Shown: positions 9,332 to 26,399 of the stretch, piece after piece | How positions within the stretch are numbered: the stretch's first letter is position 1 | Layout of the letters: every line of letters starts with the position of its first letter | Source of the DNA: a virus | Length of the DNA: 27,619 nt | Strand: one strand, 5' to 3' | IMG/VR virus record: IMGVR_UViG_3300025154_001074 | Location: 1-27,619 of that record | The notes under the pieces: model-generated | Seen by the model: the letters and a program-made list of their open reading frames with translations, nothing else | Databases searched by the model: none | Told to the model about the DNA's origin: nothing | Position numbers and translations under genes: made by a program

Positions 9332-10733
9332 AGCCTGCCCTAAACAGAACATTATTGAGATTCGTCCCCAGCCTGGACCGCAGACAGATTTCTTGCAGTG
9401 TCCGGCTGATGTTGTATTTTTCGGAGGGAGTGCCGGGGGCGGCAAGTCCTTTGCGTTATTGTTGAAACCTCTTTATAATTTTAACAATTCCAAGTTTGGC
9501 GCGGTAATATTCAGGAGGACAACAAAACAAATTCAGGAGGAAGGCGCATTATGGGATGAGGCGACCGGGCTTTATACTCCACTTGGTGCAAAATCAAATG
9601 AAAATAAATTGAAATTTACCTTTTCAACGGGGATGAGAGTTGCATTTGCTCACATGCAACATGAAAAGGATCGGTTTGATTGGCAAGGTTCCCAGATTCC
9701 CCTTATTGGTTTCGATGAAATAACTCATTTCACCTGGAAACAATTTTCTTATATGTATTCTAGGAATAGGTCTGCTTCTGGAGTATCCGGGAAAATTCTT
9801 GGCACTTGTAATCCTGATCCTGATAGTTGGGTACGGCAATTTATTGATTGGTATATTGGGGAAGATGGATTTGTAATTAAATCTCGCTCTGGGGTAATTC
9901 GTTGGTTTGTTCTTGATGGGGATCAGGTTGTTTGGGGAGAAACAAGACAGGAATTGGTTGATAAATATCCAATGTTGATTCCTTCAAGTTTTACGTTTAT
10001 CCGTTCTTCTGTTTTTGATAATAGGATTTTGTTGGAGAAAGACCCGGCATATTTATCTAAACTTCATGCCCTTCCAAGGGTAGAGCGGGCACAACTTCTT
10101 GAAGGGAATTGGAATATTCGCCCCTCTGCCGGTATGTTTTTTCGGCGTTCTGATTTTGAGATTGTTTCAGCTATTCCGGCAGGTGGCAAAAGAGTGAGGG
10201 CTTGGGACTTGGCCGGGACAAAAGCTGATCCTGTTGAAAAGAAAATTCGGGAAAAGGCGGATGGGCCAGCTTGGACTGTTGGAGTCAAGATGGTCAAGGT
10301 TGGGGGCATTTATTTTGTTGAGGATATTGAAAGAAGTCAAATTGATTCAAGTAAAGTTCTTTCGACAATAAAGAATACCGCTTCACAGGATGGGGTAAAA
10401 ACGAAAGTGCGGATTCCGCAAGATCCGGGGCAGGCCGGGAAATCTCAGGCGAAACATTTTATTTCTGAAATGGCCGGATATAATATTGTTTCATATCCTG
10501 TTTCCGGGAGCAAAGAGACAAGAGCAACTCCATTATCGGCACAAGCACAAGCCGGCAATGTTAAATTGTTACGAGGAAGTTGGAATGAATCATTTTTGTT
10601 GGAAGCTGAAAACTTTCCTGATGGAACAAAGGATCAAATTGACGCTGCTTCAGATGCGTTTGATGAATTGACTAATGTTAAAGTGGCTGGTGTTTGGGGT
10701 TCAAAACCTAAAGTGAGCATTGCCCAAAGATGA
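9324..10733 (+). CDS. Terminase large subunit
   Basis: A 469-residue ATPase/nuclease that pumps DNA into the prohead. Walker A GGSAGGGKS is at 34-42 and Walker B LIGFDE at 127-132. The RNase-H-like nuclease carries D295 (AWDLAGT), D367 (PQDPGQAG) and D444 (IDAASDAF), the expected acidic cluster. Length and motifs are complete. It has a GGAG site before ATG. Its stop overlaps the kdsB start (ATGA). Confidence 0.95.
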   Translation: MGEACPKQNIIEIRPQPGPQTDFLQCPADVVFFGGSAGGGKSFALLLKPLYNFNNSKFGAVIFRRTTKQIQEEGALWDEATGLYTPLGAKSNENKLKFTFSTGMRVAFAHMQHEKDRFDWQGSQIPLIGFDEITHFTWKQFSYMYSRNRSASGVSGKILGTCNPDPDSWVRQFIDWYIGEDGFVIKSRSGVIRWFVLDGDQVVWGETRQELVDKYPMLIPSSFTFIRSSVFDNRILLEKDPAYLSKLHALPRVERAQLLEGNWNIRPSAGMFFRRSDFEIVSAIPAGGKRVRAWDLAGTKADPVEKKIREKADGPAWTVGVKMVKVGGIYFVEDIERSQIDSSKVLSTIKNTASQDGVKTKVRIPQDPGQAGKSQAKHFISEMAGYNIVSYPVSGSKETRATPLSAQAQAGNVKLLRGSWNESFLLEAENFPDGTKDQIDAASDAFDELTNVKVAGVWGSKPKVSIAQR

Positions 10734-11461
10734 ATGCAATAGCGGTAATTCCAGCTCGATTTGCGTCGACAAGGTTCCCTGGTAAACCACTTGCCCTTAT
10801 TGCTGGCTGGCCAATGGTTCTTCATGTTTATAAGCGGGCTAGGGAAATTCAAGGAATTGATGGCGTTGTTGTTGCAACTGATAGTGATTTAATTATTAAA
10901 ACAGTTACGGATGCTGGCGGAATTGCAATATTTACTTCCGAGAATCATCAATCAGGAACAGATAGAGTTGCGGAAATAGCAAATGGAATGCGTTCTGATA
11001 GGATTATATTAAATGTTCAAGGTGATCTTCCTTTTGTTGATCCAAAAGTTTGTGAACAACTTATTCAATGTTTAGTCGATAATAAGGATATTGATATAGC
11101 ATCTCCGGTAATCGCTCAAGGAGTAGGACAGCAGAGAGATTTCCTTGACTCCAATACGGTTAAGGCTGTTTTTGATTTAAATAATAAGGCATTGTATTTT
11201 TCTCGTAGACCAATTCCTGATTCGTCTCCTTATCCGGTTGATCTATTTCCGATTTGGCATAAACATATTGGGATTTATGCATATAGAAACGAGATATTGC
11301 AAAAGGTATCTAAATTAAAGCCAACTAAACTTGAGCAATATGAAAGGTTGGAACAATTAAGATGGTTGGAGAATGGGATAAATGTTCAATGTGTAGTTGT
11401 TAATAATGATTGTGGCCCCGATATAAATTGTCCCGCTGACTTAAAAAGGTTGAACAGATGA
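10730..11461 (+). CDS. kdsB: CMP-KDO synthetase (3-deoxy-manno-octulosonate cytidylyltransferase)
   Basis: A 243-residue, full-length enzyme of the KdsB family, which joins CTP and KDO to give CMP-KDO, the activated sugar for lipopolysaccharide core or capsule. The nucleotide-binding start is IPARFASTRFPGKPL (7-21). SGTDR is at 75-79 and NVQGD at 95-99 with the metal-binding Asp99; SRRPIP and WHKHIGIYAY follow. All family blocks are present, so it should be active, although the exact ulosonate (KDO, 8-amino-KDO or similar) is not certain. It is coupled by ATGA overlaps to terminase upstream and portal downstream. It lies apart from the sugar cassette at 17596-25665 but probably serves it. Confidence 0.92.
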   Translation: MNAIAVIPARFASTRFPGKPLALIAGWPMVLHVYKRAREIQGIDGVVVATDSDLIIKTVTDAGGIAIFTSENHQSGTDRVAEIANGMRSDRIILNVQGDLPFVDPKVCEQLIQCLVDNKDIDIASPVIAQGVGQQRDFLDSNTVKAVFDLNNKALYFSRRPIPDSSPYPVDLFPIWHKHIGIYAYRNEILQKVSKLKPTKLEQYERLEQLRWLENGINVQCVVVNNDCGPDINCPADLKRLNR

Positions 11462-15411: not shown

Positions 15412-15441
15412 TCAATTTAATATTTATTGGAGGAAACAATA

Positions 15442-15909
15442 ATGGCTAACAATGCAGTAATTTTGAAAGGACATGGAATTCGTCGGGAAGCAGTCGCCAA
15501 TGCGGCTATTACTCCCGGCCATCTTGTGGAACTGATGAGCACCAGCAAGGTCAGGGTCCACGCAACTGCTTCTGGTAATGCAATCCCGATGTTTGCTGTT
15601 GAAGATGATCTTCAGGGTAATGACATTAGTGATGCTTATGCCGCTGCTGATCAGGTTCAGTACAATGTAATGCAGCCTGGGGATGAAGTATATGCCCTGC
15701 TTGCCAATGGTCAGAATATCGCTGTAGGTGATTTTCTGGAGTCCGCCGGGGATGGTACTCTCCAGAAGTATGTGGCCGATACGTGGGCTTCTGCCGGTGC
15801 TGGTACTATCTATCCTCGGGCTATTGTGGCCTTGGCTCTGGAAGCGGTGGATATGTCTGATTCGTCTGCCGCCGATCCTACTGGTCGCATTAAAGTAATG
15901 GTTGTTTAA
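15442..15909 (+). CDS. Capsid decoration-like protein
   Basis: A 155-residue protein from the ATG at 15442 (MANNAVILKGHGIRREAVAN), with GGAGG before it. It is beta-rich and small-residue-rich (ITPGHLVELMS, VMQPGDEVYALLANGQNIAVGDFLES), which recalls DUF2190-type or head-fibre base proteins placed before the major capsid gene. It has the capsid-like, GC-richer codon use, so it is probably abundant in virions. Confidence 0.65.
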   Translation: MANNAVILKGHGIRREAVANAAITPGHLVELMSTSKVRVHATASGNAIPMFAVEDDLQGNDISDAYAAADQVQYNVMQPGDEVYALLANGQNIAVGDFLESAGDGTLQKYVADTWASAGAGTIYPRAIVALALEAVDMSDSSAADPTGRIKVMVV

Positions 15910-15937: not shown

Positions 15938-17020
15938 ATGGGAGCAAATGTTGAAATTATCACCCCTGGGCAGGGAATGCCCATGATTCTTGGTGGCAGC
16001 GTAGGTAAACGACTGCTTGCAAATGGAATGGACCCCAATTGCTTGAAGCCCTATATGGGGAAGGACGGCAGGGCTTATGTAACGAAGATGTATAATGGCA
16101 AGGCTGTTGCGGTTCCTGCTCCTTACCTGAATGCAACCCTTCGTACGAAAGAGTGGATCGAACTTGATACTGCTCTTGTTCAGGCTGCCGAAGATCGGCT
16201 TGTTGGTGTAGCATCCTTGTATTCTAAGAATCTGGTTTACCGGATTGGTAATGGTCTTGGTAAAACGGTTTTGGAATATGAGGACATTGATCAGCTTTCC
16301 GCTGCTGAAATGACCATGGACGCGATTACCCGGAGCACCAAGGATCGTCCGAATTATGAGCTGAAGTATTTGCCTCTGCCCATTGTTCATAAGGATTTTT
16401 CTTTTAATGTTCGGGTTCTGGCAGCTTCTCGGACCACTGGCCAGCCGATTGATGTGACCACTGGTATTTTGGCTGCTCGCCAGGTTGCAGAAAAGATTGA
16501 AACCATCCTTTTTCAGGGTGCATCGTCTTATGCTTATGGTGGTGGGACTCTGTATGGGTATCTGGATCATCCCAACAAGAACAGTGTAACATTGAGTCAG
16601 AACTGGGATGCATCTGGCAAGACTGGTGCGGAAATTCTGGATGATGTCCTGTCCATGAAACAGGCCAGCATTGATGCCCTCCATCAAGGCCCTTGGGAAT
16701 TGTATGTTCCGACTGGTTATGAAACCGTACTAGACAATGATTATGATACGTCTACTCCTGGGACTACGATCAGGGAGCGTATCATGAAGATTGGCGGTAT
16801 TCAGGATATCAAGGTTGCAGATAAGTGTACCGCAAACAAGGTTGTACTTGCTGAAATGCGTCCTGAAACGGTTCGGATTGTTGAAGGTATGGCAATTACG
16901 ACTGTTGAGTGGGATGAGGGCGGTGGTTTTGCGACCAACTATAAGGTAATGGCCATTATGGTTCCGCAGATCCGGGCTGATCAGAATGGCAATTGTGGTA
17001 TTACTGTTCTTTCGGCTTAA
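15938..17020 (+). CDS. Major capsid protein
   Basis: A 360-residue protein from the ATG at 15938 (MGANVEIITPGQGMPMILGG), with AAAAGGAG upstream. Landmarks of the HK97-fold capsid group with encapsulin-like features are IELDTALVQAAEDRL near the start, PLPIVHKDFSFNVRVLAASR in the middle, and VAEKIETILFQGA followed by a Gly-rich loop. It is placed after protease/scaffold and decoration genes, as usual. Codon use is more biased than in neighbouring genes, fitting very high expression. Confidence 0.88.
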   Translation: MGANVEIITPGQGMPMILGGSVGKRLLANGMDPNCLKPYMGKDGRAYVTKMYNGKAVAVPAPYLNATLRTKEWIELDTALVQAAEDRLVGVASLYSKNLVYRIGNGLGKTVLEYEDIDQLSAAEMTMDAITRSTKDRPNYELKYLPLPIVHKDFSFNVRVLAASRTTGQPIDVTTGILAARQVAEKIETILFQGASSYAYGGGTLYGYLDHPNKNSVTLSQNWDASGKTGAEILDDVLSMKQASIDALHQGPWELYVPTGYETVLDNDYDTSTPGTTIRERIMKIGGIQDIKVADKCTANKVVLAEMRPETVRIVEGMAITTVEWDEGGGFATNYKVMAIMVPQIRADQNGNCGITVLSA

Positions 17021-17062
17021 TTGATTTAACAATAATTTATCTCATAACCAAGGAGATTGAAA

Positions 17063-17596
17063 ATGGAAAGGCAAACATTTCGTAAAAAGAAAAATACTGG
17101 AATGCATGTGGTTCGTAATTTTCAGGAAGGGACGAAGGTGAATGGACAGCCGGTACAGGGCCGTGCTGTCCTTCGTCCCGGCAATACTGTTTATTGTTAT
17201 CCTTCTGAGTTGGGAATTGATGGGCTGAAACAGTTTGATGCATTGACTTCAAATGGTCCGGTAGATGCAGAAGAGCAAAAGATTGAACAGGAAATTATTC
17301 AGGAAGAAAATAAGCCGGTTGCCCAACTTGAAATGGTAAGACGTGGAACAACCGCTTTTTACGATATAATCAACTCCTTGAATCCTGATAAGCCGGTAAA
17401 TGCCAAGGCACTCAGGAAGAAGGATGCAGAAAAACTTTTGATTGAATTGACTCAAGGTGAAGTTAAACCAATCAATATTAATGAACTTGGCTGGGATGAT
17501 CTGGTGAAGGAACTGGAGAAAGCCGGGGTTGAATGGAATGATGATTGGGAAACAGACGATGATTTGAGGGAAGCATTGCGAGGGCTGAATGAGTAA
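17063..17596 (+). CDS. Head-region hypothetical protein
   Basis: A 177-residue protein with AAGGAGATTGAAA before the ATG at 17063. Residues 1-65 are basic then strand-rich (GRAVLRPGNTVYCYPSELG). The middle is acidic helix (EEQKIEQEIIQEEN). The end has two short helical modules (KPININELGWDDLVKELEKA), like HeH/LEM-type elements seen in small phage head proteins. It is the last ordinary head gene before the sugar cassette; its stop overlaps the first cassette gene (TAATG). Confidence 0.65.
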   Translation: MERQTFRKKKNTGMHVVRNFQEGTKVNGQPVQGRAVLRPGNTVYCYPSELGIDGLKQFDALTSNGPVDAEEQKIEQEIIQEENKPVAQLEMVRRGTTAFYDIINSLNPDKPVNAKALRKKDAEKLLIELTQGEVKPININELGWDDLVKELEKAGVEWNDDWETDDDLREALRGLNE

Positions 17597-18225
17597 TGCC
17601 GGCCTGTCAAAGAACTCCCTGGGTAATACCAAAGCTATGGTCGGAGAGTACCATATTTATTATCGGTGGCGGGCCATCTTTGAAGGGTATGGAACTGAAT
17701 TGCTTAAGATTGAAACGAGTAATTGGAGTAAATCAAGCATTCAGAGTTTACCCTTGGGTGGACGTAACTTACTTTGGGGATTGTCAGTTCAGGGAGCTTG
17801 CCCCAAGTATCGACCAGTGGCCCGGAATTAAGGTGACTAGCTGTGGGCGGGTTCCAGAACTTGGAAAAGGATGGAGGGGGATTCGTCGTGTTGGAAGATC
17901 GAAAAATTATGGCATTGAAACAAAGAAAGTTGGATTTGTTTCTTGGAATGGCAACTCTGGTGCCAGTGCTATTAATATTGCCTATTGGTTTGGTGCTCGG
18001 CGGATTGTTTTACTTGGGTTTGATATGCATCCTGATAATGATCGACATAATTTTCATGATTTTTATCCGACCAGAGCGAAGACATTTGACCCGTATAAAA
18101 ATCATATGCGCTGTTGGCCGTATATTGCAAGGGATGCGGCAGAAGTTGGGTTGGAAATCATCAACGCAACACCGGACAGTGCAATAAAGGATTTTCCATT
18201 TATGAAGCTGGAGAAATTAATTTGA
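17596..18225 (+). CDS. DUF115-like protein (glycan-associated)
   Basis: A 209-residue protein with the FIIGGGPSLKG loop (21-31) typical of the DUF115/MptE-like fold and of some sialyltransferase-like enzymes. VTYFGDCQF and a second conserved block, NGNSGASAINIAYWFGARRIVLLGFDM (landmarks NGNSG and LLGFDM), follow. Members occur in surface-glycan and flagellin-glycosylation clusters and in phages. Nucleotide-sugar binding is plausible, but the reaction is unknown. It is the first cassette gene, coupled to the head gene before it and to the dehydrogenase after it. Confidence 0.7.
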   Translation: MPACQRTPWVIPKLWSESTIFIIGGGPSLKGMELNCLRLKRVIGVNQAFRVYPWVDVTYFGDCQFRELAPSIDQWPGIKVTSCGRVPELGKGWRGIRRVGRSKNYGIETKKVGFVSWNGNSGASAINIAYWFGARRIVLLGFDMHPDNDRHNFHDFYPTRAKTFDPYKNHMRCWPYIARDAAEVGLEIINATPDSAIKDFPFMKLEKLI

Positions 18226-19256
18226 AAGCTGCAATACTTACAGAACTGAATCAGAATTTGGTTGTTGCGAATATATCTCTTCCGAATATTCTTGATGTTG
18301 GACAGGTACTTGTAAGGGTATTTGCTTCTGGTATTTGTGGCGCTCAGATTGGGGAAATATCTGGGGCAAAAGGGCCAGATAAATATCTTCCCCATCTTCT
18401 CGGGCATGAAGGCGGTGGTATTGTAGAGAAAGTTGGTCCTGGAGTAACAACTGTAAAAAATGGGGATCATGTTTGTTTGCATTGGCGAAAAGGAGAAGGG
18501 ATTAATGCAATACCGCCAAAATATAAACTTGGGGCAGAAACTGTTGGTGGCGGTTGGGTAACAACATTTAATGAAATGGCCGTTGTTTCAGAGAATCGTT
18601 TAACAAAGGTGCCTTCTGCTCTTCCTTTTGAGATTTCGGCCTTACTTGGATGTGCGGTTACAACAGGATTTGGTTTAATAAATAATGAAGCACAATTAAA
18701 GATTGGACAATCCATTGCTGTTGCTGGTTGTGGTGGTGTTGGCCTTAATGTGATTCAAGGGGCAAAACTTGTTTGTGCTGATAAAATATTTGGTATTGAT
18801 ATTCATGATAGCAAACTTGAAATGGCAATGAGATTTGGTGCAACTCATTTGATTAATTCCAGTATTGATCAAGAGTTTATTATTGACGAAATAAACAAAT
18901 CTACAAGTGGAAAGGGTGTAGATGTATTTGTCGATTGTACCGGAGTCCCTGAAATTATTGATATGGGATTACATTTATCGAAGAAATTAATTCTTGTTGG
19001 TCAACCTAAGATTGGGGTTGATTATAAGATTTCCAATGCAAGAAATATGTATACCGGGAAAACAATAATTGATAGTCAAGGAGGGCTGACCAATCCAACT
19101 GTTGATATTCCTCGATATGCCGCACTTTATTTGAATGGGAAAATAAATCTTGAGGACTTGATTACCAGGAGATTTCCATTGAGTGAAGTAAACAAGGCAA
19201 TTGAAATGGTTAAATCAGGAAAAGTTTGTCGTTGTATTCTGGAGATGAATCAATGA
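18222..19256 (+). CDS. Zinc-type alcohol/polyol dehydrogenase (MDR family)
   Basis: A 344-residue NAD(P)-dependent medium-chain dehydrogenase. Catalytic zinc ligands are C39 (GICGAQ), H62/E63 (GHEGGG) and C144 (LLGCAVTTG); the nucleotide loop is GCGGVG (169-174). The four-cysteine structural zinc lobe is absent: the region around 84-102 reads VCLHWRKGEG without the Cys set. A TTG start at 18222 is chosen because it gives the full standard N-terminus (KAAILTE), has GGAG eight bases upstream and overlaps the previous stop as TTGA. The substrate is unknown; a sugar or sugar-phosphate reduction, as by TarJ-type enzymes, is plausible from context. Confidence 0.88.
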   Translation: MKAAILTELNQNLVVANISLPNILDVGQVLVRVFASGICGAQIGEISGAKGPDKYLPHLLGHEGGGIVEKVGPGVTTVKNGDHVCLHWRKGEGINAIPPKYKLGAETVGGGWVTTFNEMAVVSENRLTKVPSALPFEISALLGCAVTTGFGLINNEAQLKIGQSIAVAGCGGVGLNVIQGAKLVCADKIFGIDIHDSKLEMAMRFGATHLINSSIDQEFIIDEINKSTSGKGVDVFVDCTGVPEIIDMGLHLSKKLILVGQPKIGVDYKISNARNMYTGKTIIDSQGGLTNPTVDIPRYAALYLNGKINLEDLITRRFPLSEVNKAIEMVKSGKVCRCILEMNQ

Positions 19257-19999
19257 ATAATGTTGGCAAATTTCTGAAAGAATTACAACTGGTTGACATA
19301 GGATTGACCAAGATTAGGGTTGGTCCTGATCATGATGGTGGCTATGTTGTTTTGAAAGAAATCTGTGAACAATCAGATGCATTATATTCCTATGGGATCG
19401 GGGATGATGTTGAGTTCGAACTTGATTTATTGAATAGATTTCTTAATATTCAGAAGGCATTTTTGTTTGACCCGACAATTGATGGATTACCTAAACAGAA
19501 TGGGAGATTTGTATTTGTCAAAGAAGGAATTGAGAATTCGTTGAAATTTTTCAAATTCCATAAATCCCCAATGCTTAAAATTGATGTTGAATATAATGAG
19601 TGGGAAGCGTTAAACAAAATTGCCCCACTTGAATTATATAGTGCTTCTCAAATTGTGATTGAATTTCATCTTGTTCATTGTGAACCAAGAGAAGGATTGA
19701 CTAAATATTTCAATAGTTTTTATTCTGGTGTTTTTGAAAAGTTTAATGAGGAATTGTTTTCTGCTTATCTTGATATATTGAGAAAATTGAAGGATAGTTT
19801 TCATCTTGTCCATATCCATCCCAATAATTCACTTGGAATGCGGGAAATGAATGGATATCTGGTTCCTCCGCTGTTGGAATGTACATTTGTCCATAAAAAT
19901 TTGGTGGACAATTTTGTACCGGCTGAATATCAAGGGAGTGTCCAAGGGCTTGATTATCCTAACAAGAATGACCGTCCTGATGTGGGGTTTATATGTTGA
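19253..19999 (+). CDS. FkbM-like methyltransferase
   Basis: A 248-residue protein from the ATG at 19253 (GGAGATG upstream, ATGA overlap). The order of features matches FkbM-type SAM-dependent O-methyltransferases: DHDGGYVVL (26-34), LYSYGIGDDVEFE (44-56), LFDPTIDGL, FVKEGIE, and KIDVEYNEWEAL (109-120) with the DVE acidic site. Such enzymes often methylate sugars in capsules and O-antigens. Sugar methylation is inferred from the cassette. Confidence 0.75.
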   Translation: MNNVGKFLKELQLVDIGLTKIRVGPDHDGGYVVLKEICEQSDALYSYGIGDDVEFELDLLNRFLNIQKAFLFDPTIDGLPKQNGRFVFVKEGIENSLKFFKFHKSPMLKIDVEYNEWEALNKIAPLELYSASQIVIEFHLVHCEPREGLTKYFNSFYSGVFEKFNEELFSAYLDILRKLKDSFHLVHIHPNNSLGMREMNGYLVPPLLECTFVHKNLVDNFVPAEYQGSVQGLDYPNKNDRPDVGFIC

Positions 20000-20715
20000 A
20001 TGAAAGGTCAAAACAACTTCGCCGTGATACATTAAAACTTTCTACTGCAAACGGTGGGTATCATTATGGTGGTTGTTTTTCAATTGTTGAAATTTTAATT
20101 GCTCTTTATGATTTTTGTCTTAAAGAAGATGACAAGTTTGTATTGAGCAAGGGCCATGCTTGTTGGCCGCTCTATGTGATTCTTCAGGAACATGGGTTGA
20201 ATCCGAAATTATCTGGACATCCTGAAAGAGATGTAGCAAATGGCATAAATTATACAACAGGATCATTGGGCCATGGTTTTCCTGCTGCTGTTGGAATGGC
20301 ATTTGCCAAAAAGATGAAAGGTGAATCAGGGAATGTTTATGTTTTGATGGGTGATGGCGAGGCCCAGGAGGGTACGACTTGGGAATCAATGTTAATTGCC
20401 AAAAAACATAATCTTGATAATTTAATTGTAATTGTTGATGAAAATAGAATTCAAGGTTCAGGCTGGAATCAAGATATTTTATCATTTAATTTGTATGAAG
20501 TAACAAATGCTCTTGGTTTTGATACTTGGATTGTTGATGGACATAATGTTGATCAATTGAGAAAGATAATTGAAGAACCTTGTAAAACAACTAAATTTAT
20601 AATTGCCCAAACGACAAAGGGCAAAGGTGTTTCCTATATGGAAAATGATCCTAAATGGCATGCCAATTGGCCTAATAAAGAATTTATGGATTTAGCTTTC
20701 GAGGAATTGAATTGA
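19993..20715 (+). CDS. Transketolase N-terminal (TPP-binding) subunit
   Basis: A 240-residue protein matching the thiamine-diphosphate domain of split transketolases. H24, SKGHA (52-56), TGSLGHG (89-95), GDGEAQEG (120-127) and N151 (DENRIQGSG) form the TPP/Mg site. With a partner it should move a two-carbon ketol unit between sugars. The partner is the short pyrimidine-domain gene at 21492, with a sulfotransferase-like gene between them. It is slightly shorter than usual for this half. Sugar clusters use such pairs to build unusual ketoses or branched sugars; the substrate is unknown. Confidence 0.88.
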   Translation: MLNERSKQLRRDTLKLSTANGGYHYGGCFSIVEILIALYDFCLKEDDKFVLSKGHACWPLYVILQEHGLNPKLSGHPERDVANGINYTTGSLGHGFPAAVGMAFAKKMKGESGNVYVLMGDGEAQEGTTWESMLIAKKHNLDNLIVIVDENRIQGSGWNQDILSFNLYEVTNALGFDTWIVDGHNVDQLRKIIEEPCKTTKFIIAQTTKGKGVSYMENDPKWHANWPNKEFMDLAFEELN

Positions 20716-21488
20716 AATTGAACGATATTATATTTGTTCCATCTGTTCAGCATACCGGAACTTGGTTTGTGATAAATTTTCTTTTGAATTTCTTTGAACA
20801 AGAAAAAGAACTTACTTTGTTGCTTGAAGATAGGAAGAAATACGATGCAGAACATATTAATTATCAATACAAGTATGATTGCCCTCTTGATAAAAAAACA
20901 ATTGCTCATATTCATTTACCGATAGTCCAGCAGGATAGTGGTCTTGATTTAATGGATGAACAATTTTATAATGGTTGGAAAAGTAATCTTGAGACAATGA
21001 GAAGTCTTCCGATTTCGACAATTTTATTGTTCTGTAATTTTTTTAAAACAGTTATTCCGGTGCGCGATCCATTGGCCGCAATATTGACAAGAGAAGTAAG
21101 GCATCCTCAATTCAGACATTTTTATATTATTGATAATTTTGTTGCATTGGCTACGGAATTTGTTCAACATCCGAATATTATGTTTTTACCTATTGATTTG
21201 AATTATTCATTTGAGCAACGAAAAGATTTATTATTGAAGGTATTAAATCATTGTGAAATTGATAATTTTGATGAAAGTATTGTCAATAAATATGCTGAAG
21301 AATGGATTCCACAAAATATAACACCGAATAATAAATTTAAAGAAATGTATGAGAATAAGGATATTGACGGGATAATGAATTTGTTGGGACAAAAACAAGC
21401 AAGTGTTAAGTATTTACAGAATATGGCATCAATTATTTTTCCATTTATGACTTCTTTTGGCTATACAAGAGAGAATTTTATTTGGTGA
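20712..21488 (+). CDS. Sulfotransferase-like P-loop protein
   Basis: A 258-residue protein with a PAPS-type loop near the start (PSVQHTGTW, 10-18) and a second conserved block FKTVIPVRDPLAAILTR (111-127), where sulfotransferases bind the 3'-phosphate of PAPS. The rest is divergent. It is started at TTG 20712, which overlaps the transketolase stop as TTGA and has GAGG seven bases upstream. It splits the two transketolase halves. Sulfation of a glycan is inferred; no PAPS-making gene is in the window, so the host would have to supply it. Confidence 0.65.
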   Translation: MKLNDIIFVPSVQHTGTWFVINFLLNFFEQEKELTLLLEDRKKYDAEHINYQYKYDCPLDKKTIAHIHLPIVQQDSGLDLMDEQFYNGWKSNLETMRSLPISTILLFCNFFKTVIPVRDPLAAILTREVRHPQFRHFYIIDNFVALATEFVQHPNIMFLPIDLNYSFEQRKDLLLKVLNHCEIDNFDESIVNKYAEEWIPQNITPNNKFKEMYENKDIDGIMNLLGQKQASVKYLQNMASIIFPFMTSFGYTRENFIW

Positions 21489-21491
21489 TAT

Positions 21492-21974
21492 ATGAGAAGG
21501 GCGTTCGGTAAAACTATTGTAAGGCTTGGGGAGAAGGATAAACGAATTGTCGTTCTTCACGGTGATGTATTTCAGGAAATGGATGAATTTCAGAGACGGT
21601 TTCCTGATCGGATTTACAACATGGGGATTTGTGAACAGTCCCTCCTTTCTGTAGCTGCTGGAATGGCTTGTGAAGGATTGAGGCCAATTGTTTATTCCTT
21701 GACTCCGTTCCTGATTGAAAGGCCATTTGAACAATTAAAGATTGATATTGATGAGCAGAATTTGCCAGTAATACTGGTTGGCAATTCTGACTATCCTACG
21801 CATGGGCCGACCCATAGGGCATTGAATCCCGAGGGGCTTATTGGTTTGTTGAAAAATGTTCATGGTTTCTTTCCGAGAAATCAATTTGAGACCGAAAAGG
21901 CAATGCTTGATGCTTATTTGATGGGAGTTCCAGCGGTAATTTGCTTGAAGAATGAGAGGCTGCCATTCATATGA
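21492..21974 (+). CDS. Transketolase pyrimidine-domain subunit, lacking the C-terminal domain
   Basis: A 160-residue protein covering only the transketolase pyrimidine-binding domain. E48 in MGICEQSLLSVAAGMA is the Glu that activates TPP, and GNSDYPTHGPTHRA follows. Split C-terminal subunits are normally about 300 residues, with a further regulatory domain. Here the gene ends right after PAVICLKNERLP and overlaps the next gene by ATGA. No trace of the missing domain is visible in any frame downstream, so the short form appears genuine. It should pair with the gene at 19993. Confidence 0.85.
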   Translation: MRRAFGKTIVRLGEKDKRIVVLHGDVFQEMDEFQRRFPDRIYNMGICEQSLLSVAAGMACEGLRPIVYSLTPFLIERPFEQLKIDIDEQNLPVILVGNSDYPTHGPTHRALNPEGLIGLLKNVHGFFPRNQFETEKAMLDAYLMGVPAVICLKNERLPFI

Positions 21975-22618
21975 AAGTTATGATTACAGGTGCATCTCGG
22001 GGACTTGGAAAAGAACTTGTTAATGTATTTTCTGGCCATGGGAATTATTTGATAATGAGTAATCGTAATGACATTTATGAATTGCATGAAGAAGGTGTTG
22101 TGGTAAGCGGGGATTTAACTCATCCCGCAACAATCAATACATTATGTCATGAAGCAGAATTGGTTGATGGGATTGATATATTGATTAATTGTGCCGGGAT
22201 TTATGCTAATGGGGAATTTAATCAAGCAGAACTTAAAAAAGTAATGGATGTAAATTTTTTCGCAACAGTCCTTCTGACTATGAAATTATTCCCGCTATTC
22301 CGCAGGCGGAATGGGGGCTGTATCGTTAATTTAAACTCTCTGGCTGGGGTAGTAGCCGGAAAGGGAGAAATGGCATACGCAGCCAGTAAACACGCCTTAA
22401 AAGGGTTCTTCGATTCTTTGAAATTTGAAGCCACAAAATACAATATAAAAATTTTGAATGTTTATTCCGGGGCAATGAAAACCGATATGACAAAGCATCG
22501 TCCTGACTGGGATAAACTTATTGACCCGAAAGAAGTTGCAAGAGTTATTTTTGATTTATGTCAAAATTATAAATCATTAAACATAAATGAGATTACAATT
22601 ACCCGGAGCAATTATTAA
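21971..22618 (+). CDS. Short-chain dehydrogenase/reductase
   Basis: A 215-residue classical SDR. TGASRGLG (6-13) binds NAD(P), NCAG is at 73-76, and the catalytic set is S123, Y136 and K140 (YAASK). It should oxidise or reduce a carbonyl/hydroxyl, here probably on a sugar. It is coupled to the transketolase piece upstream (ATGA), and its stop abuts the fusion gene. Confidence 0.88.
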   Translation: MKVMITGASRGLGKELVNVFSGHGNYLIMSNRNDIYELHEEGVVVSGDLTHPATINTLCHEAELVDGIDILINCAGIYANGEFNQAELKKVMDVNFFATVLLTMKLFPLFRRRNGGCIVNLNSLAGVVAGKGEMAYAASKHALKGFFDSLKFEATKYNIKILNVYSGAMKTDMTKHRPDWDKLIDPKEVARVIFDLCQNYKSLNINEITITRSNY

Positions 22619-24994
22619 ATGAATGCATTAACCAAATGTATTTGTAATAGTGACCGTTTCACAGAGCGGGAATCACAATATTATGAAGTGACCCCAGAAG
22701 GGGAAACTGTAATTGCTAAAAATGGATCAAGAATAAAATTGGCCGAATGTCTTGATTGTGGGGTTATTCGACAGACAACTCTTCCTTTTGTTAAAACAGA
22801 ATATAAGAAATATTATCAGGAATATCAGCCGGTAAATGAACAATATAAGGCAAAAGATTATGATCATGACTTGAGAATTGCTAAATTACGGGCAAATGAT
22901 TACGGAATTTATGGAGGTTGTGAACTTATTTTGCTTGATGTTGGTTCCGGTTCCGGGGCGTTTGTAGATGAATGCCGGTCCAGGGGTGCGGCGGCTTATG
23001 GTTGTGAGATTTCCCAATATGCCTATGCCCCTACTGGGAATTTTATTTATAATGGGATGTTGGAGGATATTGCATTCCCAACTGATCATTTTGATGTTGT
23101 AACGTGCCATGATGTATTAGAGCATTGTCTTGACCCGGTTTCTTTTATAAAGGAAATGTTCAGAATTACCAAACAGGGTGGAAAATGTATTATTGATTTT
23201 CCCAATTTTCATGTTGAGGCTGGAAAACATCATTGGAAGATTGAACATATTTGGTATTTTAATACAGATCAATTAAAAGAATTGCTTGCAAAAACAGGAT
23301 TTATAATCAGTGGAATAAAAAATCCAATTGAATCAAAAATATTATTTACTTGTGCCAAACCAGAAGAAGATAGAAAAACAATTTTGCTCCCTCCTGGGAT
23401 TGGGGACTCATATTGGTCCTTGATTAAATTACCGGCATTGATTGAAAGGGAAAATATTGGAATTCCTGAAATAGCAGTTGCTTGTAATAAAGAGAAAAAA
23501 TACAACGGACACAAGAGGGCATTTCCTTTTATTGAAATGTTTCCTTTTGTTCATTCTTCCGGGTTCTCTCTTTCTACAGATGGGGAAAGTAATAAAAAAA
23601 TCTGGAAAGAAGCGTATGCTCAAGAAGGAAGGACAATTTTCAGAGATGTTTTAAATTGTAATTATTTCGTTTCATATAATGGCCATTTACGAATTGGCAA
23701 AAGTATGAATGAGATTGATCCTGATTTGAAATGTTCCTGGAATCCGAAAATGTTTGTTTCTCTTGAACAACTTAATTTTCAGAAGATGTGTCAAGAACAA
23801 TTTGGGAAATATATTGTTTTTTATTTTATTTTTGGTGGGACTTATAGTTATTGGACGCAGCAATTCCCAATTAAGAATATTATTGGGTATATCAGGAAGG
23901 TATTGAATCGGACAGGATTGAAAGCAGTATTTACCGGAGCAATATGGGATGGTGATGATAATCCATTGAATGAAATAAAAAAGAATTTTCCTGACTCAAT
24001 TGATCTTGTAGGGAAGACGACTGTTCAGCAATTGTTTGGATTATTGAAAGGTTCAGAATTGGTTGTTGGTTATCCTTCCGGGTTGACAATTCTTTCTGCT
24101 TCGATGGGGATTAAAACCCTTACAATATGGAACGATTATTATAATAGGGATTTTGCCTGGAATTGTGTTCAACCGGAAGTTTGGAATAAAACATATTTTA
24201 CCGAAAATACAAATGGGATTAATGTTAATTCATTAACAACTAAATCAATAGGAATAATCGAAGGGATTGCAAAACCTTCCAAACTTCCTTTGCCAACAGG
24301 AAAGAGGGAAGTTCAAACAAAGAAAAATGAAAAGGTTATTAAATCTGTTGAATTAAAACGTTCTCCTTGTTTGACAATTGCTTGTGTCCTCAAATCTGGT
24401 GGGGATTATGACGAAAAATACGTCCAGATTATGAAACGAATGATTGAAAAGACTGTAACAATTCCTTATAAGTTTTGTGTTTTAACTGATATGAATGTTA
24501 AGGATATTGAATTAATTATACTTAAAAAGAATTTTCCGGGTTGGTGGTCCAAACTTGAATTATTTTCTCTTTATGGTCCGGTACTTTATATTGATCTTGA
24601 TACAGTAATTTTACATAATATTGATAAACTTGTAAATTCTGTATCAAGGATGGATAATGGTCAATTTTGGATGCTTCCTCCTTTTAATTCTTCCAGGAGG
24701 GAAAAGGGGATGTGGGCATCTGGGATAATGGCTTGGCATGGGGATTTTAGATATTTAATTGATAAATTTGATCGTAAAAATTATGAGGGGTGGGATCAGG
24801 TTTATATTTCAAAGACACTTGAAAAACGAGGAGTTAAAATTGAATCAATTGGCCGTTTTTCAAGAATAGCATCATACAAAAGGCATTGCTCAAGTACGAG
24901 TAATAAGCCAAATGAGTTTGATATTGTTTGTTTCCACGGGAGAGAGCGGCCACATACTTGCAAACATCAATGGGTCAAGGAGATTTGGGTATGA
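22619..24994 (+). CDS. Three-domain methyltransferase / GT9-like / GT8-like fusion
   Basis: A 791-residue protein in three parts. Residues 1-250 have paired cysteines (C7/C9, C44/C47) like a zinc knuckle, then a class I SAM methyltransferase with DVGSGSGAF (107-115) and VVTCHDVLEHC, as in sugar methyltransferases. Residues 254-550 look like a heptosyltransferase-type GT9 fold: LLPPGIGDSYWSLIKLPAL at the start and VGKTTVQQLFGLLKGSELVVG plus PSGLTILSASMG near the end. Residues 585-791 resemble a nucleotide-sugar transferase of GT8 type: FCVLTDMN, LYIDLDTVIL with DLD at 659-661, and GWDQVYIS. One gene thus both transfers and methylates sugars. The GT9 part may be non-catalytic. Confidence 0.75.
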   Translation: MNALTKCICNSDRFTERESQYYEVTPEGETVIAKNGSRIKLAECLDCGVIRQTTLPFVKTEYKKYYQEYQPVNEQYKAKDYDHDLRIAKLRANDYGIYGGCELILLDVGSGSGAFVDECRSRGAAAYGCEISQYAYAPTGNFIYNGMLEDIAFPTDHFDVVTCHDVLEHCLDPVSFIKEMFRITKQGGKCIIDFPNFHVEAGKHHWKIEHIWYFNTDQLKELLAKTGFIISGIKNPIESKILFTCAKPEEDRKTILLPPGIGDSYWSLIKLPALIERENIGIPEIAVACNKEKKYNGHKRAFPFIEMFPFVHSSGFSLSTDGESNKKIWKEAYAQEGRTIFRDVLNCNYFVSYNGHLRIGKSMNEIDPDLKCSWNPKMFVSLEQLNFQKMCQEQFGKYIVFYFIFGGTYSYWTQQFPIKNIIGYIRKVLNRTGLKAVFTGAIWDGDDNPLNEIKKNFPDSIDLVGKTTVQQLFGLLKGSELVVGYPSGLTILSASMGIKTLTIWNDYYNRDFAWNCVQPEVWNKTYFTENTNGINVNSLTTKSIGIIEGIAKPSKLPLPTGKREVQTKKNEKVIKSVELKRSPCLTIACVLKSGGDYDEKYVQIMKRMIEKTVTIPYKFCVLTDMNVKDIELIILKKNFPGWWSKLELFSLYGPVLYIDLDTVILHNIDKLVNSVSRMDNGQFWMLPPFNSSRREKGMWASGIMAWHGDFRYLIDKFDRKNYEGWDQVYISKTLEKRGVKIESIGRFSRIASYKRHCSSTSNKPNEFDIVCFHGRERPHTCKHQWVKEIWV

Positions 24995-25665
24995 TTGATC
25001 CTATCCTTATAACCGGCGCTGCCCGTTCTGGAACAAGTATGACCGCTGGGATTATTCATATTTGTGGTGGATTTGGCGGGGATACGGCAGGCCCGAATAT
25101 TCATAATCAAAAGGGGATGTTTGAAAATCTTGAAATAAGAAATTCAATTACTAAACCATATTTGAAAAGCATTGGTTGTGACCCTTTAGGGCAAAGGCCA
25201 TTACCTAATTCCCGGCAGGTTTTTGAGGTAACTCAACAGCAAGGAGAACAATGGAGAAAAAGGATACAATCAGTAATACAATATCAAGGATATAAGGACG
25301 GGATTTGGTATTACAAGGGGGCGAAGATGTGTTTGTTTTGGTATATGTGGCATCTTGCCTTTCCTGCTGCTAAATGGGTAATTGTAAGACGTGAAGCTGA
25401 TCAAATTGCTGAATCTTGTTTGCGAACTTCTTTCATGCGTGCTTATAAGACAAAAGATGGCTGGTTGGATTGGGTAAAAGTTCATGAAGATAGATTCAGA
25501 CAAATGAACAAGGCTGGTCTTGAAATTATGGAAGTTTGGCCCTCTAAAATAATTGCCGGGGATCAATTAGAGATGAAACAAATGATTGAATGGTTAGGGC
25601 TTGAATGGAAACAGAATCTTGTAAATGCCTTTGTTGATCCTGCTTTATATGGAGGTAAAAAATAA
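24991..25665 (+). CDS. Sulfotransferase family protein
   Basis: A 224-residue protein from the ATG at 24991 (AAGGAG upstream, ATGA overlap with the fusion gene). The P-loop GAARSGTS (9-16) and WVIVRREADQIAES (129-142) are the two PAPS-binding blocks of the sulfotransferase family. It is the last cassette gene; its stop overlaps the head-tail connector start (TAATG), so the cassette joins the structural genes without a gap. The acceptor is unknown, probably a glycan. Confidence 0.75.
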   Translation: MIDPILITGAARSGTSMTAGIIHICGGFGGDTAGPNIHNQKGMFENLEIRNSITKPYLKSIGCDPLGQRPLPNSRQVFEVTQQQGEQWRKRIQSVIQYQGYKDGIWYYKGAKMCLFWYMWHLAFPAAKWVIVRREADQIAESCLRTSFMRAYKTKDGWLDWVKVHEDRFRQMNKAGLEIMEVWPSKIIAGDQLEMKQMIEWLGLEWKQNLVNAFVDPALYGGKK

Positions 25666-26048
25666 TGGGCCGGGTTACTTCCGCAGAAGTTCGAGAAATA
25701 ATTGATATTGATTCATCAATAACTGATATCACTCCATTTATTACTGCTGGGAATTTGTTGGTAACAAATGCATTTTCCGGGGATACGCAAGTTGGTGATG
25801 CAACATTAAAAGAAATTGAACGATATATTGTTGCTCATATTATTTGTTCCAGGGATCAGAGAACAATAGAGGAATGGGCAGGCGGTAATGAGGGGGTAAG
25901 GGTGAAATATATGGGCCAGTTCGGAAAAGGTCTTGAATCTACTCCTTATGGGCAGAATGCATTGCTTTTGGATTTTACTGGCAGATTGGCGGCTCTTGGT
26001 AGAAAACGGGCAAGTATCGGAATGATTGATTATTCGACGGATGTATAA
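25665..26048 (+). CDS. Head-tail connector (adaptor)
   Basis: A 127-residue protein resembling phage adaptor proteins that bind the portal ring: a short helical protein with SAEVREIIDIDSSITDITPFI at the start, a central helix ending AHIICSRDQR, and a loop YMGQFGKGLESTPYGQNALLLD. It resumes the structural order after the cassette. The family is assigned from position and pattern. Confidence 0.65.
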   Translation: MGRVTSAEVREIIDIDSSITDITPFITAGNLLVTNAFSGDTQVGDATLKEIERYIVAHIICSRDQRTIEEWAGGNEGVRVKYMGQFGKGLESTPYGQNALLLDFTGRLAALGRKRASIGMIDYSTDV

Positions 26049-26399
26049 ATGAACAATCGAGTAAGAAAAAATCTGTTGAGACAAACCGCTGTTTATTGGG
26101 GTTCTCCGGTAAATGATGGGTATGGAGGAAAGACGTTTGCTGCCCCTGTAGAAGTTGAATGTCGTTGGATGGTTAAACAGGAAAAGATTGTATTACAGAA
26201 TATGGAAGAAGTTCTTTCAAAGGCTGTTGTTGCATTGAGTGATGATGTTGAAGTTGGGGGGAGATTGGCCTTGACTGATCTTGATAATTTGAATAGTTCC
26301 CAACTTCCTGAAGATGAAGAGTCTTTTGAAATTATGAAATTCTCGAAGAATCCTGATCCGAAAGCAAATGTTTTTGTAAGGACTGCGTGGCTGATATGA
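26049..26399 (+). CDS. Head closure (stopper)-like protein
   Basis: A 116-residue protein, beta-rich, with TAVYWGSPVNDGYGGKTFAAP and VECRWMVKQEKI. This is the usual pattern of small head-closure proteins that seal the portal after packaging. It starts directly after the connector stop and overlaps the next gene by ATGA. Assignment rests on pattern and position. Confidence 0.6.
   Translation: MNNRVRKNLLRQTAVYWGSPVNDGYGGKTFAAPVEVECRWMVKQEKIVLQNMEEVLSKAVVALSDDVEVGGRLALTDLDNLNSSQLPEDEESFEIMKFSKNPDPKANVFVRTAWLI

Follow-up and report, generated by a model that had tools for sequence, protein, structure and literature searches.

Why does a tailed phage carry nine genes for making and decorating sugars among the genes that build its head and neck? 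The question is raised by the window analysed here, namely, the whole 27,619-base IMG/VR virus record IMGVR_UViG_3300025154_001074 (positions 1–27,619), in which a nine-gene block at 17,596–25,665 runs from a DUF115-like gene to a sulfotransferase gene (ST2). An earlier note, made from the sequence of the window, had described the block as a nine-gene sugar cassette in an unusual location. The gene content proved real, but the block is not a fixed cassette; it is one filling of a widespread variable head-to-neck slot in a large group of tailed phages, with the DUF115 gene (first) and ST2 (last) as near-constant ends and middle genes that change. Nor is the location unusual: genes of this kind occupy this place or one close by in relatives and, in a smaller version, in Psp6 and PAJU2, two cultured Pseudomonas phages.

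The two ends of the slot were followed with separate profiles. The DUF115 profile matched at least 555 loci, of which the best 80 were taken; 77 of these gave a DUF115 open reading frame (ORF), forming 65 clusters at 90%. A head gene lay within five genes upstream in 62 of these 65 clusters. This set was seeded with DUF115 and not with ST2, and its 7 kb flanks end many loci early, a tail-side gene being visible in 33 of the 65. Where both ends of a DUF115-seeded slot were visible, ST2 was present in 28 of 32 slots, and a domain of the fusion family, represented in the window by a methyltransferase joined to two glycosyltransferase-like parts, lay between the ends in 26 of 32. The ST2 profile gave 451 confirmed loci on viral contigs; 80 were taken, and 100 ST2 ORFs across all loci formed 64 clusters at 90%. 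In 58 of the 64 clusters (80 of 451 loci), neck genes stood at most three genes downstream: the first neck gene came next in 45 and within three genes in 8, and other neck genes came within three in 5. The six clusters without neck genes are the upstream second copies of L104, L129 and L156, plus L008, L094 and L152.

Thirty-nine distinct head-to-neck intervals were drawn from 59 loci, including ST2-seeded loci and the slot-gene-free intervals of L010 and L016. Their length was 292–12,108 bases (median, 4,399). DUF115 was called in 36; L095 was scored without it by a crude ORF caller, and tblastn finds DUF115 on the same contig (L165). ST2 was present in 35 of 39, a count biased upward because ST2-seeded loci are among the intervals. 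One slot (L154) has exactly two genes, DUF115 and ST2, and the first neck gene follows them. Loci L006 and L117 share 72% identity in the first neck gene, 63% in DUF115 and 55% in ST2, yet counterparts were found for only 20% and 33% of the genes between the ends. Spearman correlation with the identity of the major capsid protein (MCP) was 0.56 for DUF115, 0.61 and 0.52 for the neck genes, 0.37 for ST2 and 0.25 for the fusion family, with 28 to 32 of the 39 intervals entered. DUF115 tracks the MCP about as well as the neck genes do, and ST2 and the fusion family do so less. The values for the MDR dehydrogenase (0.77, 0.63) and the transketolase N subunit (TK-N; 0.14, 0.19) came from 4 to 6 intervals only, too few to use.

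The middle of the slot is rich in sugar-related families. Pfam matches were most numerous for methyltransferases (up to 16 proteins), hexapeptide transferases (9) and GT2 (7), followed by transketolase N, MDR, SDR and GT9 (6 each), radical SAM and epimerases (5 each) and APS kinase (4); this tally covers 143 of 164 ORFs of at least 100 aa, one per 70% cluster, gives the first 25 of 90 families and was made without a non-slot control set. TK-N was found in 6 of the 39 intervals.

Two results limit the picture of a freely exchanged middle between constant ends. The more alike the neck genes, the more middle genes are shared (Spearman 0.47, 554 pairs), which makes the exchange partial. In addition, a search with the MCP gave fifteen loci, some of them the same phage in two records, in thirteen of which a DUF115-like gene follows the MCP; nine of the fifteen end the block with ST2, yet L010, L011 and L012 have DUF115 and reach the neck genes without ST2. 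In L010, DUF115 comes after the first neck gene. L013 ends early, and L015 and L016 have neither end gene.

Smaller sets of similar genes are found in cultured phages. In the Pseudomonas putida phage Psp6, the stretch from MCP to connector holds a DUF115 match spanning two annotated hypothetical genes, a phrog_6804 protein that matches the fusion family weakly (E 0.0015), and a methyltransferase. The same trio occurs in PAJU2, after the head closure gene Hc1 and before an HK97-gp10-like gene. In P1 (NC_005856; L236:4144-6702), pmgO is annotated as a sialyltransferase, pmgP is DUF115-like and pmgQ matches the C-terminal glycosyltransferase of the fusion protein; the three are filed as putative morphogenetic genes and have the late promoter LPpmgL upstream. 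Their products look like glycosyltransferases, not structural morphogenesis proteins. Caulobacter phage CcrSC has DUF115 and then five genes, including a methyltransferase and a GT9-like gene, after the tail genes. These sets resemble the slot in that DUF115 is followed by GT9-like and/or methyltransferase or GT-A genes, with the Psp6 set between MCP and connector. They differ in having few genes; neither a transketolase nor KdsB is annotated in the parts inspected, and the profiles of ST1 (the other sulfotransferase-like gene of the block), ST2, FkbM and MDR had no match among ten proteins tested from the four phages. In Brevundimonas phage MaInes (MCP 32%), the MCP gene is followed by one 120-aa gene and then short neck-like genes, none annotated as a sugar gene.

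Within the window, ORFs and Pfam and PHROG matches confirmed the nine same-strand genes and agree with the activities named for them, except for ST1, to which a motif and a low-confidence model point (Table 1). The tight coupling described earlier was likewise observed, as block neighbours overlap by 1–7 bases, abut or leave a single 3-base gap; starts were read from the upstream bases for MDR (TTG at 18222), FkbM (ATG at 19253) and ST2 (ATG at 24991). The placement between head and connector was borne out by the last head-side gene on the 5′ side and the neck genes on the 3′ side, but the label of connector for the gene at 25,665 rests on position, since this gene matches only a PHROG of unknown function; neck/connector-family genes follow it at 26,387 and 26,803.

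Table 1 Features of the window discussed in the text
Feature	Coordinates	Strand	Evidence and remarks
kdsB, CMP-Kdo synthetase (CTP_transf_3)	10730..11461	+	PF02348 E 3e-50; between terminase and portal, 4-base overlaps both sides
Head-decoration-family protein	15427..15909	+	phrog_766 head decoration E 4.6e-17
Major capsid protein, HK97-type, DUF6260/Linocin family	15938..17020	+	PF19774 E 8.5e-23 (on the longer reading, from 15,902); phrog_771, phrog_264 major head protein
Last head-side gene before slot	17057..17596	+	no Pfam or PHROG match; precedes DUF115 in many relatives
DUF115-like predicted glycosyltransferase, Maf/CstII-like fold, 5′ anchor of slot	17596..18225	+	phrog_4603 E 3.5e-31; AlphaFold pLDDT 81.5
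Zinc MDR dehydrogenase	18222..19256	+	TTG start; PF00107, PF08240; phrog_2640 3e-78
FkbM-like methyltransferase	19253..19999	+	PF05050 weak, E 0.01, below cut-off; family recurs beside transketolase genes
Transketolase N (TK-N; thiamine diphosphate domain), split subunit	19993..20715	+	PF00456 2e-25; profile match 6yak split transketolase 7e-63
ST1, probable sulfotransferase	20712..21488	+	motif; no Pfam or PDB-sequence match
Transketolase pyrimidine-domain subunit (TK-C), 160 aa, without third domain	21492..21974	+	PF02779 2e-18; 6yaj 1.2e-22
SDR oxidoreductase	21971..22618	+	PF00106 4e-39
Fusion of methyltransferase, GT9 (heptosyltransferase-like) and GT-A-like glycosyltransferase	22619..24994	+	PF13489 1.2e-18; PF01075 2.3e-5
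ST2, PAPS-type sulfotransferase, 3′ anchor of slot	24991..25665	+	PF13469 (Sulfotransfer_3) 28.3 bits, cut-off 27
First neck-region gene, slot end	25665..26048	+	phrog_37884 (unknown function); no Pfam match; recurs after ST2 in relatives

An assembly join at 17.6–25.7 kb was ruled out by four other records that carry the block or part of it at 85–100% identity. The whole order from MCP through the block to the neck is present in 3300025000_000091 (100%) and 3300025010_000551 (86–98%), and 3300001242_000343 (100%), starting inside DUF115, and 3300009285_000251 (85–98%), starting inside FkbM, both run into neck and tail genes. Signals of a separate transcription unit were near the shuffled level and neither show nor exclude a promoter: from 8.5 to 27.6 kb there were 58 promoter-like matches against 57.3 in shuffled sequence, and 19 terminator-like matches against 14.1 (standard deviation 4.0), slightly above. 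The two best plus-strand promoter-like matches (10 of 12) fall inside the block at 20,519 and 20,944, and one plus-strand terminator-like match inside it lies at 21,623, within the TK-C gene. The guanine-plus-cytosine content is 0.30–0.38 in the middle of the block (TK-C, 0.42), compared with 0.44 in DUF115, 0.39–0.49 in head and neck genes and 0.37 in kdsB. Codon fit has no clear break despite the lower middle values; foreign codon usage was thus set aside, and no recent gain is claimed.

What such a slot is for has to be judged from its enzymes and its place. The reading to which we lean, if only a little, is that the slot enzymes would act late and in the cytosol, glycosylating and sulfating a virion protein.

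The first anchor carries much of this reading. The best structural match of the DUF115 model is the flagellin-modifying-type enzyme Maf (5mu5; MAF_flag10), with Z 14.2, root-mean-square deviation 3.7 and 187 of 209 residues aligned (Foldseek E 1.7e-5), followed by CstII- and Cst-I-type sialyltransferases of the GT42 type (Z 10.5–11.9), and the PHROGs name for the family is sialyltransferase. The model is thus that of a glycosyltransferase of Maf/CstII type. Flagellin is the substrate of Maf enzymes, and both Maf and CstII use ulosonic acids activated with cytidine monophosphate (CMP), donors that would fit the KdsB of the window; the presence of KdsB is on this ground suggestive and no more. 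Unlike those enzymes, the DUF115 protein of the window is a single 209-aa domain, and its glycosyl transfer is a prediction. Two matches count against the assignment. The fold also resembles the MptE diphosphokinase/pyrophosphokinase 8sd5 (Z 11.1), and PF01973, the family named DUF115/MptE-like, scores 22.6 bits, below its cut-off of 34.6, so we describe the protein as working like Maf and not as Maf. One PAJU2 GenBank record, moreover, calls the feature under the DUF115 match a structural protein. That DUF115 is an MptE-like diphosphokinase or a structural head protein, with the slot modifying a small molecule or nothing, nevertheless seems quite improbable, given that Maf has the highest Z and the most residues with CstII next, that the PHROGs family is named for sialyltransferases, and that the partner genes encode glycosyltransferases and methyltransferases.

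The last anchor points to sulfation. ST2 has an invariant P-loop-like motif (G-x-x-R-S-G) and had no match among 50,697 named phage records. The low-confidence model of ST1 (pLDDT 64.7) has sulfotransferases using 3′-phosphoadenosine 5′-phosphosulfate (PAPS) as its top Foldseek rows, at E 5e-3 and above, none under 0.001. ST1 lies between both transketolase genes in the window lineage, in L022/L023 and in L038 and, together with other genes, in L046/L047. Adenosine 5′-phosphosulfate (APS) kinase is the enzyme that makes the sulfate donor PAPS. It was found over cut-off in 4 of 20 records, lying in the slot directly before ST2 in three of them (L101, L023, L045) and elsewhere in the fourth; a fifth record (G014) matched below cut-off. 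The function of sulfotransferases in phage genomes is called unclear in one paper (PMC10580990).

Between the anchors, the window carries a split transketolase with two dehydrogenases. The GDGE motif of TK-N and residue E48 of TK-C are invariant in 24 sequences; E48 matches the pyrimidine-domain glutamate that has a catalytic role in transketolase. The Carboxydothermus split transketolase (6yak/6yaj) is the best solved relative of both subunits and is likewise encoded by two genes. Its pyrimidine subunit has 341 aa, however, and the phage TK-C has 160 aa (156–179 aa among TK-C ORFs) without the third, C-terminal domain, making this a two-domain transketolase variant. The third domain was missing from the pyrimidine subunit in the phage relatives seen. 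Named phages gave 23 records with distant TK-C matches of less than 60% identity. Among 48 TK-N loci, which include cellular loci and records of the same phage, MDR was nearby in 42, TK-C in 43 and SDR in 39.

The cellular kin of this module suggest the kind of sugar. Four cellular loci (two Pelagibacteraceae, one Ignavibacteriales and one Opitutaceae record) with TK-C more than 55% identical all have an HldE-type kinase nearby (TIGR02198 E 2e-40 to 1e-111), of which only that of L052 passes the cut-off. The MDR-TKN-TKC-SDR order recurs in the ADP-heptose-type clusters of L051 and L052 (Pelagibacteraceae, Ignavibacteriales) with FkbM-like and/or GT9-like genes nearby. The L051 contig (7.5 kb) may itself be viral; GmhA-like, RfaE2-like and HldD-like genes are present on it as well. 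The sugar of the transketolase and dehydrogenase module may thus be of heptose type. In contrast to these clusters, the window phage has the module without an HldE-type kinase. A complete ADP-heptose pathway in the phage was therefore rejected, the block was not filed as one, and a heptose-type product would need host enzymes; PfkB kinases occur in 8 of 32 phage records. Some stretches of uncultured viruses (L034-L036, L037, L039-L043, L049, L050) combine the transketolase module with a heptose-type kinase, an adenylyltransferase, an epimerase and a cupin, and no head gene of this phage group was recognised in them. Locus L053 (JAUWXC010000008.1), a fifth record with TK-C more than 55% identical, is filed in an archaeal (Methanocellales) metagenome-assembled genome, yet has a Mu-F-like head gene with the module and looks like a phage contig.

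The same module invites a metabolic explanation, in which transketolase and dehydrogenases would boost host carbon or pentose metabolism and the transferases would be passengers. Phages do carry pentose-phosphate genes, and the transketolase motifs are intact here, but transketolase is missing from most slots while DUF115 and ST2 stay, and the subunits belong to the two-domain subfamily that accompanies heptose genes in cells. We regard this explanation as improbable.

Outside the block, kdsB is a tenth sugar gene, absent from the earlier account. Its product scores 193.5 bits against the KdsB model TIGR00466 (cut-off 155.2), has 1gq9 as best PDB match (E 1.4e-48) and matches 13 distinct solved KdsB-type sequences. 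Another 7 records of the lineage have the gene next to TerL and/or portal, within the limits set by the record ends; it occurred in 1 of 32 related phage records searched, that one being this phage. A WaaA-type transferase for 3-deoxy-D-manno-octulosonic acid (Kdo; PF04413) was found in 0 of 20 records, with 3 of 14 control genomes positive, as expected if Kdo goes elsewhere. Export proteins were also lacking. By a crude hydropathy threshold, not a trained predictor, none of 240 slot ORFs of at least 100 aa had two or more transmembrane-like segments and 4 had one, whereas 5 of 57 ORFs from four cellular sugar loci had at least two; the 240 thus include no predicted multi-pass flippase or polymerase of Wzx/Wzy type.

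These data bear on the strongest rival, in which the enzymes would add Kdo, heptose, methyl and sulfate groups to lipid A-core late in infection, so that progeny avoid re-adsorbing to debris or rival phages are shut out. It is the strongest because lipid A-core is also modified at the cytosolic face, with Kdo and heptose as its sugars. KdsB and the GT9 (heptosyltransferase-family) domain are enzyme types of the lipopolysaccharide (LPS) inner core, the cellular module has HldE-type kinases nearby at all four loci (one over cut-off), and core sugars need no flippase of their own, so that the lack of membrane proteins fits this remodelling too. Against it, the near-constant parts of the slot encode no core transferases but a Maf-like protein and a sulfotransferase; no WaaA-type Kdo transferase accompanies them, though host WaaA could serve; the slot keeps to head and neck genes across many lineages; and late timing fits exclusion poorly. 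Such host-surface remodelling is in our judgement unlikely, though a serious candidate.

Four features taken together favour modification of a virion protein in the cytosol at assembly: export proteins are lacking, the first anchor is Maf-like, the slot keeps its place at head and neck, and ST2 lies by the neck genes. The earlier proposal of late expression, with a sulfated, methylated sugar for virions or the host surface, remains the best reading; it is supported by the Maf/CstII-like fold, the APS kinase by ST2 and the lack of export proteins, and of its two destinations the virion is the one we prefer. Under this proposal, the block would be translated late, alongside the capsid proteins, and act in the cytosol during head assembly. 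The transketolase pair, MDR and SDR would produce an uncommon sugar phosphate, probably one with seven carbons (sedoheptulose/heptose type), for activation by host or cargo enzymes, and KdsB would provide CMP-Kdo. A chain might then be started by the DUF115-like enzyme at a serine or threonine residue in a virion protein; the fusion protein would lengthen and methylate this chain, FkbM would add another methyl group, and ST1 and ST2 would add sulfate from PAPS. The C-terminal part of the fusion protein matches phrog_1962 glycosyltransferase (residues 585–790) and P1 PmgQ (27%, 1e-6). The head-decoration-family protein is a candidate acceptor of the glycan. The product of the gene at 17057–17596 is a candidate acceptor or docking protein.

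Several points weigh against glycosylation of the virion. The computed evidence fits lipid A-core as the acceptor as well as it fits a virion protein. As kdsB lies outside the slot and was seen only in this lineage, its link to DUF115 is a guess. Neither record of this phage (66.6 kb and 40.8 kb) yielded an HldE-type (PfkB) kinase. Multi-pass proteins are likewise missing from L051, the nearest cellular cluster (0 of 10, short contig), and sigma-70 promoters are predicted for the P1 pmg genes as well.

The sugars might also go onto phage DNA. Glycosyltransferases that act on DNA are known from phages, and 3 of 20 related records contain a thymidylate-synthase-like gene. Such a gene was not found in the 66.6 kb or 40.8 kb record of this phage (the search did not extend to other base-modifying enzymes), and a Maf-like protein and a sulfotransferase at the slot ends argue for another target; we consider DNA hypermodification very improbable.

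In bacterial O-antigen loci, variable genes lie between conserved flanks. The slot is similar in holding variable sugar genes between near-constant genes; it differs in lacking a multi-pass membrane protein and in sitting among phage head and neck genes. By analogy, the exchangeable middle would set the glycan type of the particle as an O-antigen locus sets bacterial serotype. A bolder and rather doubtful extension is that the slot is a virion serotype locus swapping sulfated-glycan programmes, and that the version in this phage, with CMP-Kdo and a heptose-type sugar, mimics the LPS inner core on the head.

Glycans on virion proteins are already known, having been described on capsid and tail-tube subunits of mycobacteriophages (Freeman et al. 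2023, as reported in PMC12619734), and the slot phages are predicted to share this feature. The difference is that a large exchangeable set, predicted to serve sugar synthesis, methylation and sulfation and bounded by near-fixed ends, occurs here in unrelated phages. An exchangeable sulfated-glycan slot of this breadth among head genes may be new; no paper on one was found in the literature searched, which leaves most subscription papers outside its coverage and is no proof that none is published. If the reading holds, P1 pmgO/P/Q and the PAJU2/Psp6 trio, now called hypothetical or morphogenetic, would be united in a single hypothesis open to test: that the particles of many tailed phages wear a coat of sugars that vary and are often sulfated. 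Such a coat would bear on phage persistence, phage recognition and the role of phage sulfotransferases.

The remaining genes of the window follow two arms. The left arm, on the minus strand, holds genes read as replication genes. The gene names TerS, DnaB, DnaC, primase, polymerase, clamp and RecA were assigned by eye. The right arm, on the plus strand, runs before the block through terminase, portal, Mu-F-like, DUF2213, head-decoration-family and major head protein genes and one further gene, and past the block through two genes without a named family to neck/connector-family genes and the major tail protein. The 66,583-base record 3300025000_000091 is identical to the window over the shared part, and no integrase was found in it or in the 40.8 kb record. 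After its tail-tube gene it has a 1,295-aa ORF, probably the tape measure. Comparison with 3300001242_000343 (40.8 kb) places its two ends within a single tail-tube gene, separated by about 260 bases, which points to permuted or circular ends and a genome size of about 66.8 kb.

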